This document shows positions 56,438 to 62,153 of a DNA stretch of 64,000 nt, piece after piece. The stretch is from Alcaligenaceae bacterium CGII-47 (GTDB taxonomy: Bacteria; Pseudomonadota; Gammaproteobacteria; Burkholderiales; Burkholderiaceae_B), in the NCBI GenBank assembly GCA_019166125.1, contig JAHTBO010000003.1, forward strand, positions 128,985 through 192,984. The letters are read 5' to 3'. Below the pieces are notes generated by a model, which had not been told where the DNA came from, did no database searches, and worked only from the letters and a program-made list of their open reading frames with translations. The stretch's first letter is position 1. Every line of letters starts with the position of its first letter. The translations under genes and the position numbers were made by a program.

Positions 56438-57682
56438 CTAGGCAGGCGCGACATCCAGCGCATCGATATCCCGGCGCAACCACCACAACAAGACCAGACC
56501 AGGCAGAGCGATCACGACAGTCATCACAAAGAACATCGGCCAATCATAACGTTCTACCAGCACAGGCGTGAGCGGGCCCGCCAGATAGGTACGCCCCACT
56601 GCCGATAAGGCCGAGAGCAGTGCAAACTGCGTCGCAGAGAATTCCTGCTTGCACAAGGCCATCAGCAAGGCGACAAACGCCGCTGTCCCCAAGCCACCAC
56701 ATAGATTCTCGACAGCAACCACAATCGCCATGGAGGTCAGATGCGCAGGCGTGACCGCCAGCACCCAATAGCCAAAGTTCGATACGGCCTGCAACACCCC
56801 AAATATCATAAGCGCGCGATACAAGCCAAAGCGGCTCATGAGAGACCCGCCCATCAGCGCACCGACAATCGTCGCGGCCAGGCCAAATACCTTGTTGATG
56901 GTGCCCACTTCAGTCACATCAAAGCCCGCGCCACGCAGCAAAAATGTTGTGGACAATGCACCCGCAAACGCATCACCAAGCTTATAGAGCACAATTAGCA
57001 GAAGGATCATCAGCGCACCGCGCCGGGTAAAGAACTCCCGCAGGGGTTCAACGACAGCCAGACCCAGGGTGCGCGGAGCACGCGCGACGTGCTCGGGCTC
57101 GGGCGCAAACAAGGTGGCGATAGAGGCTAGCGCCATCACTGCGCCCATCGCATAGTAGGTAGCGCTCCACCCAAGCCACTGATCCGCCAATATCAACGCA
57201 AGTCCACCCGAGGCAATCATGGCCAAGCGATACCCCAGCACCTTGATTGCCGCACCGGCCGCACGCTCATCCTGGCGCAGCACATCCGTACTGTAGGCAT
57301 CAAATGCAATATCCTGGGTCGCCGATAGAAAAGCCACCCATACCGCCAGCAAGGCGAGCGCAGCCAGATGCAAGTCAGGGGGAAACAGACCCATTGCAGC
57401 AATGGAGACGGCCAAGAGCAACTGCGAAACAAAGATCCAGCTACGACGTCTACCCAACCAAGGCGGCGCATAACGATCCAGCAACGGCGCCCAGAGAAAT
57501 TTAAGGGTATAGGCCGAGCCGACCAAGGTAAGAAAGCCGATCTGTTGCAAAGAGACCTGTTCTACTGTGGCCCAGGCCTGTAGCGTCCCCCCCGTGAGTG
57601 CCAGCGGCAAGCCACTGGCAAATCCCAACACCAACAGGGGTGCCACCCGCCGGTTGGCATAGACGCTGAACCAGGCCATCAT
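56438..57682 (-). CDS. ampG: AmpG-family muropeptide permease
   Basis: The 414-residue major-facilitator protein has 12 helices and the AmpG landmarks LLVLGFASGLPLALTGGTLQAW, GSAYTLKFLWAPLLDRY (core KFLWAPLLDRY), the QDIAFDAYSTDVL block and KLGDAFAGALSTTFLL. AmpG imports anhydromuropeptides from the periplasm for recycling, feeding Mpl (14134-15516) after NagZ and AmpD action. Its start overlaps the end of metW by four bases, so it may be translated with the metX-metW operon. Confidence 0.92.
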   Translation of the reverse strand: MMAWFSVYANRRVAPLLVLGFASGLPLALTGGTLQAWATVEQVSLQQIGFLTLVGSAYTLKFLWAPLLDRYAPPWLGRRRSWIFVSQLLLAVSIAAMGLFPPDLHLAALALLAVWVAFLSATQDIAFDAYSTDVLRQDERAAGAAIKVLGYRLAMIASGGLALILADQWLGWSATYYAMGAVMALASIATLFAPEPEHVARAPRTLGLAVVEPLREFFTRRGALMILLLIVLYKLGDAFAGALSTTFLLRGAGFDVTEVGTINKVFGLAATIVGALMGGSLMSRFGLYRALMIFGVLQAVSNFGYWVLAVTPAHLTSMAIVVAVENLCGGLGTAAFVALLMALCKQEFSATQFALLSALSAVGRTYLAGPLTPVLVERYDWPMFFVMTVVIALPGLVLLWWLRRDIDALDVAPA

Positions 57683-58311
57683 GAGCCTTGACGCTGTGCC
57701 ATGGACTCGAATCGGTACACCGCCAAGGTGCTGCGCCAGCCTTGCAAAAAATGGATTTCCTTTTGCTCGTGAAATGTCGCCCGATGCGTGATACGCAGCC
57801 CAAGCGTCACCGCCAGGCTTTGAAAGTCACGTAGCGTACATAGATGAATGTTCGGTGTGTTATACCAGGCATAAGGCATCTGGCCGGTCACAGGCATGCG
57901 CCCAAACAAAATCGACCAGCCATGCGGCCAATAACCGAAATTTGGAAAAGATACGACCCCATAACGTGCAACACGCGCCATCTCGCGCAAAATATGCTCG
58001 GTATTACGCATGGACTGCAGGGTCTGGGACAGGACCACTGTGTCGAACTGATGATCATCAAAGAGCGCCAGCCCATCCTCCAGGTTTTGCTGAATCACCC
58101 GCACACCACGCCGTACGGCAGCAATCACCCGCTCGTCGTCTATCTCTACGCCCGCCCCGTTGACCTGTCGGGATTCGTGCAAGTGCGAGAGCAGCGTCCC
58201 ATCGCCACAGCCCAGATCAAGCACGCGACTGCCCGGTTCAATCCATTCGGCAATACGCAGCAGGTCTGCACGAACTGCGCCATCCGACGTTATCCCAGCG
58301 ATCGTACTCAT
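57679..58311 (-). CDS. metW: Methionine biosynthesis protein MetW
   Basis: The 210-residue protein is a SAM-methyltransferase fold with VLDLGCGDG at 30-38 and the MetW landmarks [21 protein letters not shown] (core SQTLQSMRN) and [23 protein letters not shown] (core FPNFGYW). MetW always accompanies MetX in many proteobacteria and is thought to assist homoserine acylation. It is coupled to metX and to ampG through four-base overlaps, making a metX-metW-ampG string. Confidence 0.94.
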
Positions 58312-59543
58312 GCCAGTACTCCGGTCGTGCGCTCACGCGCAGGCAAGCCCAGGCGCATCGCGATCTGATCATAATAGCCCTGCACAATTGCATGATAACG
58401 ACGGTCTCCAAGCAAAAAGGCATCATGCCCGTGGGGAGCGTCAATCTCGGCATAACTTACGTCACACTTGTTCTTTAGTAATGCCCGAACCAACTCGCGG
58501 GAATGCTCTGGTGCGAAACGCCAGTCGGTGGTAAATGACACCAACAAAAAGCGTGCCTGCACATCGCGCAAAGCACGCGCCAAATCCCCTCCGTGGTCGC
58601 GCGCCGGATCAAAATAATCCAGCGCACGCGTCAGTAGCAGATAAGTATTTGCATCAAAGTAGCGTGAAAACTTTTCACCTTGGTAACGTAGATAGGACTC
58701 GACCTCAAACTCTACATCGTAGTTATAGTGAAAGTTGCCCCCTGGCGCAGGCGAGCGCTGAGTACGACCGAATTTTTCGGCCATCACCTCATCGGACTGA
58801 TAGGTGATGTGCCCCACCATGCGTGCCACCGTCAAACCATGCGTCGGGACGACTCCGTACTGATAGTAGTCACCGCCACGAAAATCAGGATCGGTAATGA
58901 TGGCGCGCCTGGCCACCTCGTTGAAGGCAATATTCTGTGCGCTTAGACGCGCGGTACTAGCAATCACGATGCAATCGCCCACCCGCTCAGGGCAGGTAAT
59001 GGCCCAGCTTAACGCCTGCATGCCGCCCAGTGACCCACCCATGACGGCTGCAAACTTGGCAATTTCGAAACAATCCGCCAACCGTGCCTGCGCATGCACC
59101 CAATCCTCAACCGTCAGCAAGGGAAAGGATGCTCCCCAGGGCTGGCCTGTCTCTGGATTGATCGTCACCGGCCCTGTCGAGCCGAAGCACGATCCGATAT
59201 TATTCACGCCAATCACAAAAAAACGGTCTGTATCAACAGCCTTGCCTGGCCCCACCATATTGTCCCACCAGCCGATGCTGTCGGGTTGGCTGGCATCTAT
59301 GCCCGCCACATGGTGTGAGGCATTGAGCGCATGACAGACCAGCACCGCATTACTGCGCTCGGCGTTAAGCGACCCATAAGTCTCTACCGCCAGAGTATAC
59401 GAGGGCAGGATCTGGCCACTACTTAGAACCAATGGCTCATTAAACTCGATGAACGCCGCAGAGACATAGCCAACGCTGCCCGTCGGTATTGGCACAAGCG
59501 TGGTATCAGGAATGGGGGGAACAGAAACAGAGGTATCAGTCAT
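58308..59543 (-). CDS. metX: Homoserine O-acyltransferase (acetyl- or succinyl-)
   Basis: MetX acylates homoserine in methionine synthesis. The 411-residue alpha/beta hydrolase-fold protein has the nucleophile S171 in [15 protein letters not shown], the acid in [12 protein letters not shown] and the base His in [11 protein letters not shown]. It also has family blocks [38 protein letters not shown] (core WWDNMVGPG) and [12 protein letters not shown]. Many such proteobacterial MetX proteins use succinyl-CoA, so the acyl donor is not certain. The ATG at 59543 lies behind AAAGAG, which is embedded in a SAM-II riboswitch-like leader, so its translation should fall when S-adenosylmethionine is plentiful. 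Confidence 0.95.
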
Positions 59544-59549
59544 CGGGGA

Positions 59550-59600
59550 CTCTTTAGCTGGATTTATGGGCGCCCGCAAGCGGATCAAGCAAATCGGCGC
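59550..59600 (-). ncRNA. SAM-II (SAM-alpha) riboswitch in the metX leader
   Basis: Read on the minus strand, the leader contains in order: P1 5' arm GCGCC (59600-59596), GAUUUG (59595-59590), GCUUGC (59581-59576), P1 3' arm GGCGC (59574-59570), AUAAAU (59567-59562) and AGCUAAA (59559-59553). These are the conserved blocks of SAM-II in the right order. UUGC (59579-59576) can pair with GC(U)AA in the GCUAAA block to close the pseudoknot. The ribosome site AAAGAG (59555-59550) overlaps this pseudoknot and lies 6 nt from the metX ATG, giving the expected translational off-switch. The class is best known from alphaproteobacterial met genes. Confidence 0.82.
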
Positions 59601-59703
59601 AAACTCGTAAAAGTTATTCTAGCACCAAGCCCACCCCTAGCCAGACCGCAGCGAAGCCGTCCACCAGGACAAAATAGTCTTGATGCAGATCAGGGCTATC
59701 TTC

Positions 59704-59791: not shown

Positions 59792-60064
59792 ATGAAGCCG
59801 TTAACAACACGCGAGGAATCCTGCCTGCATTGGGCAGCACAAGGCAAAACCAGCTGGGAGATCGGCGTTATTCTTGGCATTACCGAACGCACCGTGAACT
59901 TTCATATTGCCAATATCTGTACGAAATTCAATGTGCACACACGCCAGGCGGCCATCGCAACTGCCTTGCGTGCCGGTGTTCTGCCTAGTCCAGCCTCCCC
60001 GTCTTCAGGGCGGTCCAGAAATCTTGCACGGGAGCACGCTCAAACATCTGTCGCTTGCCCATGA
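59792..60064 (+). CDS. Stand-alone LuxR-type helix-turn-helix protein
   Basis: The 90-residue protein is only a LuxR/GerE DNA-binding domain: LTTREESCLHWAAQGKTSWE, IGVILGITERTVNFHIANIC (recognition region about 28-47) and KFNVHTRQAAIATALRAGVL (about 49-65). It most resembles the C-terminal part of autoinducer-binding LuxR regulators, but no sensor domain, start remnant or pseudogene lies upstream, and AGGAGG sits 6 nt before the ATG, so it is an intact short gene. The last 25 residues (Ser/Pro/Arg-rich) are not part of the domain and are coded opposite the 3' end of the next gene, an 80-bp overlap. The upstream sequence is AT-rich with a 12-bp palindrome. Confidence 0.78.
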   Translation: MKPLTTREESCLHWAAQGKTSWEIGVILGITERTVNFHIANICTKFNVHTRQAAIATALRAGVLPSPASPSSGRSRNLAREHAQTSVACP

Positions 60065-60584: not shown

Positions 60585-62153
60585 ATGATCACTAGCATTG
60601 AACGGCAGTCTATTCTGCGCGCGCACCCGCACTGGCTGCGAAACATCCTGCGCGGCATTGAAAAAGAAGGCCTGAGGGTTGACGCAGGCGGCCAACTCGC
60701 ACGCACCCCGCATCCGGTAGCGCTCGGTGCGGCGCTGACCAATCCGCACATCACGACAGACTACTCTGAAGCCCTGCTAGAACTCATCACCGGTACCCAG
60801 CAACGCGCCGAAACGGTCATCGAGGAACTGCTCGATACGCACAGCTATGCCGCCCGGCGTATCGAAGGCGAAATAGTCTGGAACCAATCCATGCCCGCCC
60901 ACCTGCCCTCCGAGGCAGACATCCCCATCGCATGGTACGGCACCTCGAACTCAGGCATGCTCAAGCACGTCTACCGAGAGGGGCTCGCGTGGCGCTACGG
61001 CAAGGTCATGCAATGCATCGCAGGCGTGCATTACAACTTCTCTCTGCCCGAAGCTGCCTGGGAGGATCTCGTATACGAGGGCAATACGCCCCAACAACGT
61101 CGAAATACCGGCTATATGGCGCTGATCCGCAACTTTGTGCGCTATGCCTGGATGCTGATGTATCTGTTTGGCGCCTCACCCGCCGTCTCGCGCAGTTTTT
61201 TGCAGCGCACCGGCCTCGAGTCACAACTCGAACGCATTGAAGCCGACACCTATATCATGCCGTGGGCGACGAGCCTACGTATGACTGACCTCGGCTACAA
61301 GAGCCCCATTCAGTCCGAACTCGAGCTTTGCTACAACGATCTCGATACTTTCATGGTACGCATCTACGATGCCGTGACGACCGCATGGCCTGAGTACGAG
61401 CGCTTAGGAACCAAGCGCGACGGTAAATGGATTCAGCTTAATACCAGTATTCTGCAAATCGAAAACGAATACTATTCCAGCATCCGGCCCAAGCAAGTCA
61501 CGGGCCGTTGCGAACGTCCCACCACTGCGCTCATGCAGCGTGGCATCCAGTACGTCGAGGCACGCTGTTTGGACATCGACCCCGAATCCCCAAGCGGCAT
61601 CAGCGTCCAGACCAGCCGTTTTATGGACGCTTTCCTGCTGTTTTGTGCGTCCGAGGACAGCCCATTCTTTCCAGTTCCTGGTTTTTGCCAGGATAGTCAG
61701 GATAATTTCTCGACAGTGGCTCGCGCAGGCCGTACACCAGGCCTGCAGCTTATGCAGGACGGGCAGCCTATTGCCTTGCAGAAATGGGGCGTCCAACTCA
61801 TCGATCGCATCAAGCCTTACGCCCAGCTACTCGATGAGGCGATCGGTGGTTCAGGATATCTGGAATCACTTGAGCTGCAGCGCACCAAATTCCTGGATAC
61901 TTCAAGCACACCATCAGCCAGACTAGTCACCCAACTGCGCGACTCGGGCCTAAGCTTTCACGAGTGGACACTACGCCAGAGCCAGGCGCACTGGGAGACG
62001 TTACGCGCTCGGCCCATGACGCCAGAAAAGCTCGACGCCTATGATCAGGCGGCGCACCAATCGCTTGTCGATCAGGCACGCCTGGAGGCCGGTGACCAAG
62101 AAAGCTTTGATGACTATGTCGCGCGATTCCATGGGGCGTTGACCCATCCTTAA
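60585..62153 (+). CDS. gshA: Glutamate-cysteine ligase
   Basis: GshA makes gamma-glutamylcysteine, the first step of glutathione synthesis. The 522-residue protein is of the gammaproteobacterial (E. coli GshA) type: ILRGIEKEGLRVDAGG at the N-terminus, ITTDYSEALLELITGT, CIAGVHYNFSLPEAAW, LFGASPAVSRSF and ARCLDIDPESPSGIS near the middle. Length is close to the E. coli enzyme. It is not fused to GshB, and gshB is not in the window. The flavoprotein gene starts 36 bp after it. Confidence 0.96.
   Translation: MITSIERQSILRAHPHWLRNILRGIEKEGLRVDAGGQLARTPHPVALGAALTNPHITTDYSEALLELITGTQQRAETVIEELLDTHSYAARRIEGEIVWNQSMPAHLPSEADIPIAWYGTSNSGMLKHVYREGLAWRYGKVMQCIAGVHYNFSLPEAAWEDLVYEGNTPQQRRNTGYMALIRNFVRYAWMLMYLFGASPAVSRSFLQRTGLESQLERIEADTYIMPWATSLRMTDLGYKSPIQSELELCYNDLDTFMVRIYDAVTTAWPEYERLGTKRDGKWIQLNTSILQIENEYYSSIRPKQVTGRCERPTTALMQRGIQYVEARCLDIDPESPSGISVQTSRFMDAFLLFCASEDSPFFPVPGFCQDSQDNFSTVARAGRTPGLQLMQDGQPIALQKWGVQLIDRIKPYAQLLDEAIGGSGYLESLELQRTKFLDTSSTPSARLVTQLRDSGLSFHEWTLRQSQAHWETLRARPMTPEKLDAYDQAAHQSLVDQARLEAGDQESFDDYVARFHGALTHP

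Follow-up and report, generated by a model that had tools for sequence, protein, structure and literature searches.

The leader of metX in a member of the Alcaligenaceae raises two questions: whether it belongs to the SAM-II class of riboswitches, and at which step of expression it would act. The leader lies in a 64,000-nucleotide stretch of the genome of Alcaligenaceae bacterium CGII-47 (the window). An initial annotation, made from the letters of the window, had described SAM-II blocks before metX and a betaproteobacterium-like host. The latter is borne out, and the host genus is taken here as Castellaniella.

The metX leader and its assignment to SAM-II

Read directly on the minus strand, positions 59600-59541 run GCGCC-GATTTG-CTTGATCCG-CTTGC-G-GGCGC-CC-ATAAAT-CCA-GCTAAA-GAG-TCCCCG-ATG. 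The blocks named in the initial annotation (GATTTG, GCTTGC, ATAAAT, and GCTAAA) are all there, in the order and at the place it gave, and the GCGCC/GGCGC P1 stem that it described has 5 of 5 pairs. The observation of SAM-II blocks before metX is therefore real. The pocket blocks GATTTG, CTTGC, and GCTAAA are identical to those of genus relatives, and the A-rich L3 strand is present as well. By analogy with the published structures, GATTTG would serve as the third strand of a SAM-binding triplex (PMC6061858, PMC12434664). The metX ATG is at 59543-59541 on the minus strand, with 9 bases between GCTAAA and the ATG, and the GAG ribosome site lies 6 bases before the AUG. Coordinates are collected in Table 1.

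Table 1. Features of the metX leader and of the genes that follow it
Feature	Position	Strand	Evidence or remark
Extended -10 promoter element, TGCTAGAAT	59616..59624	-	15 nt before P1; comparison with relatives
SAM-II (RF00521) aptamer core, P1 to GCTAAA	59553..59600	-	RF00521 29.3 bits; model R1 65.5 bits
P1 5' strand, GCGCC	59596..59600	-	Direct read; helix paired in 100% of cells, 136 relatives
GATTTG, putative third strand of SAM-binding triplex	59590..59595	-	Columns invariant or at least 90% conserved, 136-sequence alignment
GATC, 5' strand of ribosome-site helix (P2a of the literature)	59583..59586	-	Comparison of relatives
GCTTGC block	59581-59576	-	Direct read
CTTGC, pocket strand	59576..59580	-	Its GC pairs with GC of GCTAAA; 136/136 relatives paired, invariant
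P1 3' strand, GGCGC	59570..59574	-	Direct read; same helix analysis as P1 5' strand
ATAAAT, A-rich L3 strand	59562..59567	-	Direct read; 136-sequence alignment
GCTAAA, pocket strand	59553..59558	-	Invariant in 136 sequences
GAGTC, ribosome site and 3' strand of ribosome-site helix	59548..59552 (GAG 59552-59550)	-	GAGGTC in relatives
metX, homoserine O-succinyltransferase	58308..59543	-	NF047916, 642.7 bits, cut-off 560
metW	57679..58311	-	TIGR02081, 276.9 bits, cut-off 189.5; 4-base overlap with metX
ampG-like muropeptide transporter	56438..57682	-	NF008867, 704.8 bits, cut-off 656; 4-base overlap with metW

A cmscan of 59500-59700 against 4227 Rfam families returned a single match at E values up to 10, which was to RF00521 (SAM_alpha) on the minus strand at 59610-59533 (29.3 bits, E 4e-5, model positions 1-79). 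SAM-V, for which the Rfam library presumably includes a model, gave no match in this interval at that threshold. Across the 3.45-Mb genome the metX leader was the top of seven RF00521 matches (E 1.6e-4). The runner-up (L002, 18.8 bits, E 0.11) was rejected as a chance match; its surroundings were recognised by eye as an aconitase-like coding sequence. The gathering score of RF00521, which is an inclusion rule and not a structural feature, is 36 bits, and because the leader scores below it, a default Rfam scan of the 64-kb window at gathering scores reported nothing. The RF00521 run proposed in the initial annotation thus gave a significant match that stays under the curated cut-off, and membership of SAM-II therefore rests on orthology with relatives. 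A covariance model of 64 positions carrying P1 only (model R1), built from 136 relatives without the window, matched 59607-59544 on the minus strand with 65.5 bits (E 1.1e-16). Genome-wide the leader had an E value of 6.1e-15 with this model, and the next match scored 16.2 bits (E 0.42).

The element is ordinary, since close relatives carry it too. RF00521 matched 10 of 10 genus genomes, five of them above the cut-off. A pattern search allowing up to 2 mismatches found the element before metX in all 80 of the closest named metX loci (the best 80 of 301, of which the majority, not all, are titled Alcaligenaceae or one of its genera). At E 0.1, RF00521 matched 46 of 61 relatives (24 above cut-off), a count that may include chance matches because 3 of 14 control genomes match as well. 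Of 399 genomes sampled from the order, 178 matched it at E 0.01 (64 above cut-off); none of the 14 controls matched at E values up to 0.01 or 0.001. Model R1 at E 0.01 matched 140 of 151 family genomes, 127 of them below E 1e-10 and 13 weakly; seven of the 11 family genomes without a match are genomes of 0.7-0.8 Mb from one genus. By the order count with RF00521 and the 127 strong family matches with R1, SAM-II is by no means uncommon outside Alphaproteobacteria, and the earlier statement that it sits mostly there is not supported as it stands. In a sample of the class at E 0.001, R1 matched 141 of 276 genomes and RF00521 96, only 25 of these above cut-off, so cut-off-based counts of SAM-II are probably underestimates. 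One class-level genome (G754) had 10 R1 matches, five of those listed scoring above 69 bits, which is an unusually large SAM-II set.

Parts of this distribution are already in print. The legend of a 2005 alignment names SAM-II in Bordetella bronchiseptica (Corbino et al. 2005, PMC1273637), and Bordetella is also among the best 80 of 301 metX loci. A 2007 paper notes SAM-II with terminators in alpha- and betaproteobacteria (PMC2258182), and a 2009 paper describes SAM-II as commonest in Alpha-, Beta-, and Gammaproteobacteria (PMC2704228). SAM-II in Bordetella has thus been known since 2005, and the metX leader described here adds a member to the class. It resembles the RF00521 or metA element, as presented in the 2005 account, in block order, P1 and pseudoknot, pocket sequences, a met-gene target, and a promoter just before P1 (PMC1273637). 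It differs in a P1 of 5 bp, in a 3' blocking helix that has 4-5 bp in most members of the family but no more than 3 bp in the window, in that no terminator was found, and in its score below the gathering cut-off. SAM-V, as described alongside SAM-II, has a near-identical binding pocket and a ribosome site in a short helix, but has an extra helix, P3, and other helix lengths (PMC6061858).

Structure, operon, and proposed mode of action

The secondary structure was assessed in an alignment of 136 sequences (A1), taken from 138 non-redundant references from which two loci with 4 mismatches had already been dropped; L101, which has a long insert, and L192 were left out. Every cell of P1 was paired (100%), and 2 of its 5 pairs showed two-sided changes (GC to AU in 3 sequences and CG to UA in 7). 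The pocket-side GC/GC pseudoknot pairs never vary in the relatives, and the window has the same letters. The 3' helix, which contains the ribosome site, was paired in 69.9% of cells. The whole structure was paired in 89.3% of cells, compared with 85.3% in shuffles, and none of 500 shuffles was as high. The covariation score also exceeded all 500 shuffles, and only 3 of 500 had at least as many pairs with two-sided change. Further pair types were no more numerous than in the shuffles (18 versus 17.8; 303 of 500 as high). When the structure was slid along the alignment, pairing dropped to 32-53%. A minimum-energy fold, from a program without pseudoknots, formed the 5-bp P1 with a stability no greater than that of shuffles (z 0.18; 113 of 200 at least as stable). 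The same fold shows a 4-bp AGUC/GACU hairpin around the AUG of the window.

The ribosome-site helix is GATC/GGTC in the family and nearly invariant, and covariation within the family is uninformative for it because it hardly varies. In sequences from outside the family, pairing at its first position reaches 97%, almost always as C-G, and its second pair covaries (71% paired versus 51% when permuted; 0 of 1000 as high), whereas positions 3-5 are not paired above chance. The helix of the family is therefore longer than that of its neighbors. In L101 as many as 24 bases separate GATTTG from CTTGC (usually about 9), and the ribosome-site helix is retained as GGTCT/AGGTC.

These results bear on whether the conserved leader might be a protein-binding site or operator and not an RNA aptamer at all. 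The blocks are very highly conserved in primary sequence, as such a site would be, and SAM binding is ascribed to the leader from its class. The two-sided changes in P1 and the covariation of the blocking helix outside the family nevertheless point to a folded RNA, as do the five genus copies that exceed the cut-off of RF00521 itself, and we regard a protein site as extremely improbable.

A consensus sigma-70 scan of the window found no promoter; the extended -10 element emerged from the comparison of relatives. The motif TGNTANNNT, represented in the window by TGCTAGAAT, lies no more than 45 nt before P1 in 75 of the 82 family loci, compared with 5.55 of 82 in shuffles. With this element just before P1, the mRNA probably starts there, and a start near 59609 can be inferred. 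A start a few bases before P1 would make the leader little more than the aptamer, with room for translational action only. The first ATG or GTG follows GCTAAA by 7-17 nt in 81 sequences. In the family, terminator-like hairpins within 150 bases downstream are no commoner (5 of 82 loci) than in shuffled downstream sequence (21 of 318), the controls for both the terminators and the -10 element being single-base shuffles. In the window no terminator was found in the 150 bases after GCTAAA. The platform thus agrees with the earlier proposal of action on translation: no terminator was found, and the 3' strand of the pseudoknot runs into the ribosome site.

Taken together, the leader of metX-metW(-ampG) is very likely a SAM-II riboswitch that shuts off the translation of metX at high S-adenosylmethionine (SAM). 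The binding of SAM, the OFF direction, and the blocking of the ribosome site are carried over from descriptions of the SAM-II class (PMC6061858, PMC12434664). Without SAM, the GAUUUG third strand would be loose and the ribosome site beside GCUAAA open, and MetX and MetW would be made. SAM would bind between GAUUUG, CUUGC, and GCUAAA, whereupon the pseudoknot would close; this closure would form the short helix of GAUC with the ribosome site and so block initiation. A translational SAM-II model of this kind, with a blocking helix of 2 bp, has been published (PMC6061858, PMC12434664). The crystallized metX SAM-II shares, in those accounts, the metX target and a ribosome site within a short 3' pseudoknot helix. 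Direct control of methionine synthesis by SAM in Castellaniella and its family is accordingly very probable, at a locus on which the default Rfam scan is silent.

The naming of metX as the target, followed by metW, is upheld by family-model matches above the respective cut-offs (Table 1). Of the best 80 of 301 metX loci, 74 show the 4-base overlap between metX and metW. In the same 80 loci, ampG was found in 79 and lies directly after metW in 78; it is 2 kb away in L080 and was not found in L107. The metX-metW-ampG arrangement is therefore a family trait. The initial annotation had also coupled ampG to the switch through gene overlaps. Its operon structure stands, but a 4-base overlap of metW and ampG was seen in only 24 of the 79 loci with ampG. 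In 20 of the 79 no ampG start codon was located, so that their overlap is undecided; four have longer nominal overlaps and the others have gaps of up to 97 bases. Through the operon structure, peptidoglycan recycling might come under the same control. That the switch also sets the expression of ampG, linking peptidoglycan recycling to methionine supply, would be compatible with the other readings and would fit the two successive 4-base overlaps in the window, the metW/ampG overlap in 6 of the 7 loci titled Castellaniella, and the common position of ampG after metW. Given the gaps, the undecided loci, and the exceptions L080 and L107, we consider this addition rather unlikely. Divergent from metX, a reading frame at 59792-60064 on the plus strand encodes a 90-residue protein with a LuxR-type helix-turn-helix (best NCBIfam model VisN, at 55.3 bits short of the cut-off of 250). 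The neighborhood of metX also includes another gene of sulfur metabolism, gshA, which encodes glutamate-cysteine ligase, at 60585-62153 on the plus strand (TIGR01434, 578.1 bits, cut-off 393.3).

The ribosome site of the window

Compared with nine other genus genomes, the window is without one base between P1 and ATAAAT and without one G in GAGGTC. The linker from P1 to ATAAAT is of variable length in relatives. The apparently missing G sits in the stretch that serves as both the ribosome site and the 3' strand of the helix, and the ribosome site is GAGG in the nine other genus sequences and GAG in the window. In the relatives GAUC can pair with GGUC, and GAGGU is offered to the ribosome. In the window, pairing in register gives C-G, U.U, A.C, and G-C, leaving only the C-G and the outer G-C; the slipped pairing of GAU with GUC comes with a C.A. 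The longest run of pairs that GAGTC allows is 3, and this run is out of register. Of the 81 sequences, 74 have a longest contiguous ribosome-site helix of 4 or 5 bp, counted out of register in a few rows (e.g. L071, L093, L094, and L105), whereas that of the window is 3 bp. GAGTC is unique to the window among the 81 sequences; L093 and L107 have other changes there.

Burial of the ribosome site by the pseudoknot consequently fits the relatives better, in which GAGGTC pairs with GATC, and applies less well to the window, where the hidden site is weaker because one G is missing. In the A. tumefaciens element the response to SAM was abolished when P2 was broken, as reported in 2005 (PMC1273637). 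A short helix alone does not imply lost function, however, because the blocking helix of the crystallized translational metX SAM-II is itself described as just 2 bp (PMC6061858). Compared with the nine other genus genomes, the species of the window is weakened in its blocking helix and in its ribosome site alike, from which we predict lower basal translation and weaker repression.

A natural minimal form of SAM-II is seen in six Oligella/Brackiella-group relatives (L110, L111, L112, L115, L116, and L117): the pocket is intact, but the ribosome-site helix lacks its 5' strand, with 4 bases between GATTTG and CTTGC. In all but one of these, P1 is changed to GACGCC/GGCGTC.

The deviation of the window could alternatively mark a decayed SAM-II, in which the aptamer was inherited, the missing G and the missing base between P1 and ATAAAT uncoupled the switch, and metX is expressed at a constant low level. 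None of the other genus genomes scores as low with RF00521 as the window does (29.3 versus 34.3-40.4 bits, 10 genomes in all); the window alone of the 81 sequences has GAGTC, and its blocking helix and ribosome site are both weakened. Set against this, P1 and every pocket block are intact, relatives differ in the length of the stretch from P1 to ATAAAT, the blocking helix of the published metX SAM-II has only 2 bp (PMC6061858), and the Oligella/Brackiella-group relatives keep the pocket even without the 5' strand of the helix. Decay is therefore an unlikely explanation, and a working but detuned translational SAM-II is preferred.

The metXZ RNA and SAM-II elements with terminators

In its account of methionine regulation, Leyn et al. 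2014 reported SAM_alpha only in Rhizobiales and Rhodobacterales and described a "novel" metXZ RNA before metXW in betaproteobacteria, including three of three Alcaligenaceae genomes (PMC4239095). That RNA is described with six blocks, a pseudoknot of regions 1-4 and 2-6, a region 5 that can pair with region 2, and terminators (PMC4239095). The metX leader is like it in lying before metXW in Alcaligenaceae, in single copy, and, going by the text, agrees with the six blocks, the 1-4/2-6 pseudoknot, and a region 5 able to pair with region 2. Compared by description only, the published text fits GCGCC, GATTTG, GCTTGC, GGGCGC, ATAAAT, and GCTAAA, with UUUG pairing with UAAA and AUUU with AAAU. The two differ in that the metXZ RNA is described as novel and terminator-based, whereas terminators after the element are at background in the family and none was found in the window. 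From the text of its description, the metXZ RNA is probably SAM-II. Searches of a literature library for a paper that equates the two listed only Leyn et al. 2014, PMC2704228, and a guanidine-riboswitch paper, and the passages of PMC3766115 and PMC12452182 that bear on the subject do not make the link.

Terminators were surveyed at 111 loci of the order (31 plus 80), drawn from the better-scoring matches listed. Three of these (L124, L143, and L145) had no match to the pattern, which left 108, and L161 and L186, which belong to the family of the window, were counted there, giving 106 loci from other Burkholderiales. A terminator-like hairpin follows the element within 150 bases in 100 of the 106, and among the other six a hairpin can be recognised by eye in L164, L220, and L226. 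At ten loci from other orders of the class a hairpin with a T run was also seen by eye. Of the 100 terminator hairpins, 39 carry the complement of a pocket block, either GCAAGC (to GCTTGC) or TTTAGC (to GCTAAA), compared with 0.86 when the inner bases were shuffled. The longest exact complement to the aptamer reaches 12-13 bases in L130, L137, L147, L151, and L212 and is shorter than 7 bases in 53 of the 100 (mean 6.5 versus 4.8 in shuffled sequence). The antisense copies of the pocket within terminators suggest that pocket and terminator compete in part of the loci, which would make these elements candidate antiterminator switches.

A terminator-antiterminator element of the metXZ type could by extension be proposed for the window, as an attenuator of metX transcription. 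Leyn et al. 2014 list metXZ in all three of their Alcaligenaceae genomes with terminators after the element (PMC4239095), and the frequency of hairpins in other Burkholderiales is as given above. In the window, however, the 9-base spacing from GCTAAA to the ATG and the failure to find a terminator within 150 bases led us to reject transcription attenuation, which is very improbable at this locus.

Keeping translational SAM-II control for the window, we lean toward a joint reading of the two groups. The metXZ RNA would be SAM-II, its identity probably overlooked since the scores of most betaproteobacterial copies fall short of the Rfam cut-off. The usual platform in Burkholderiales, and at the ten sampled loci from other orders of the class, would be a terminator, often one that carries GCAAGC or TTTAGC, antisense to the SAM pocket, and formation of the pocket and of the terminator would then be mutually exclusive. 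Alcaligenaceae would have lost the terminator and linked the pseudoknot straight to the ribosome site of metX, and the loss of one base would have detuned this junction in the species of the window. One aptamer before one gene, metX, appears to have two different outputs within a single bacterial order, and a published "novel" regulatory RNA, as its text describes it, can probably be merged into SAM-II.

The 98 reading frames called downstream of the order-level elements include clusters of 36 (metX), 33 (metZ), 8 (metH), and 7 (metK), each named through one fragment by its best NCBIfam model. In the last of these clusters, with one fragment identified, SAM-II and a terminator precede metK, encoding SAM synthetase, at L133, L138, L139, L158, L162, L167, and L168. 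According to Leyn et al. 2014, metK is without a known methionine regulator in betaproteobacteria (PMC4239095).
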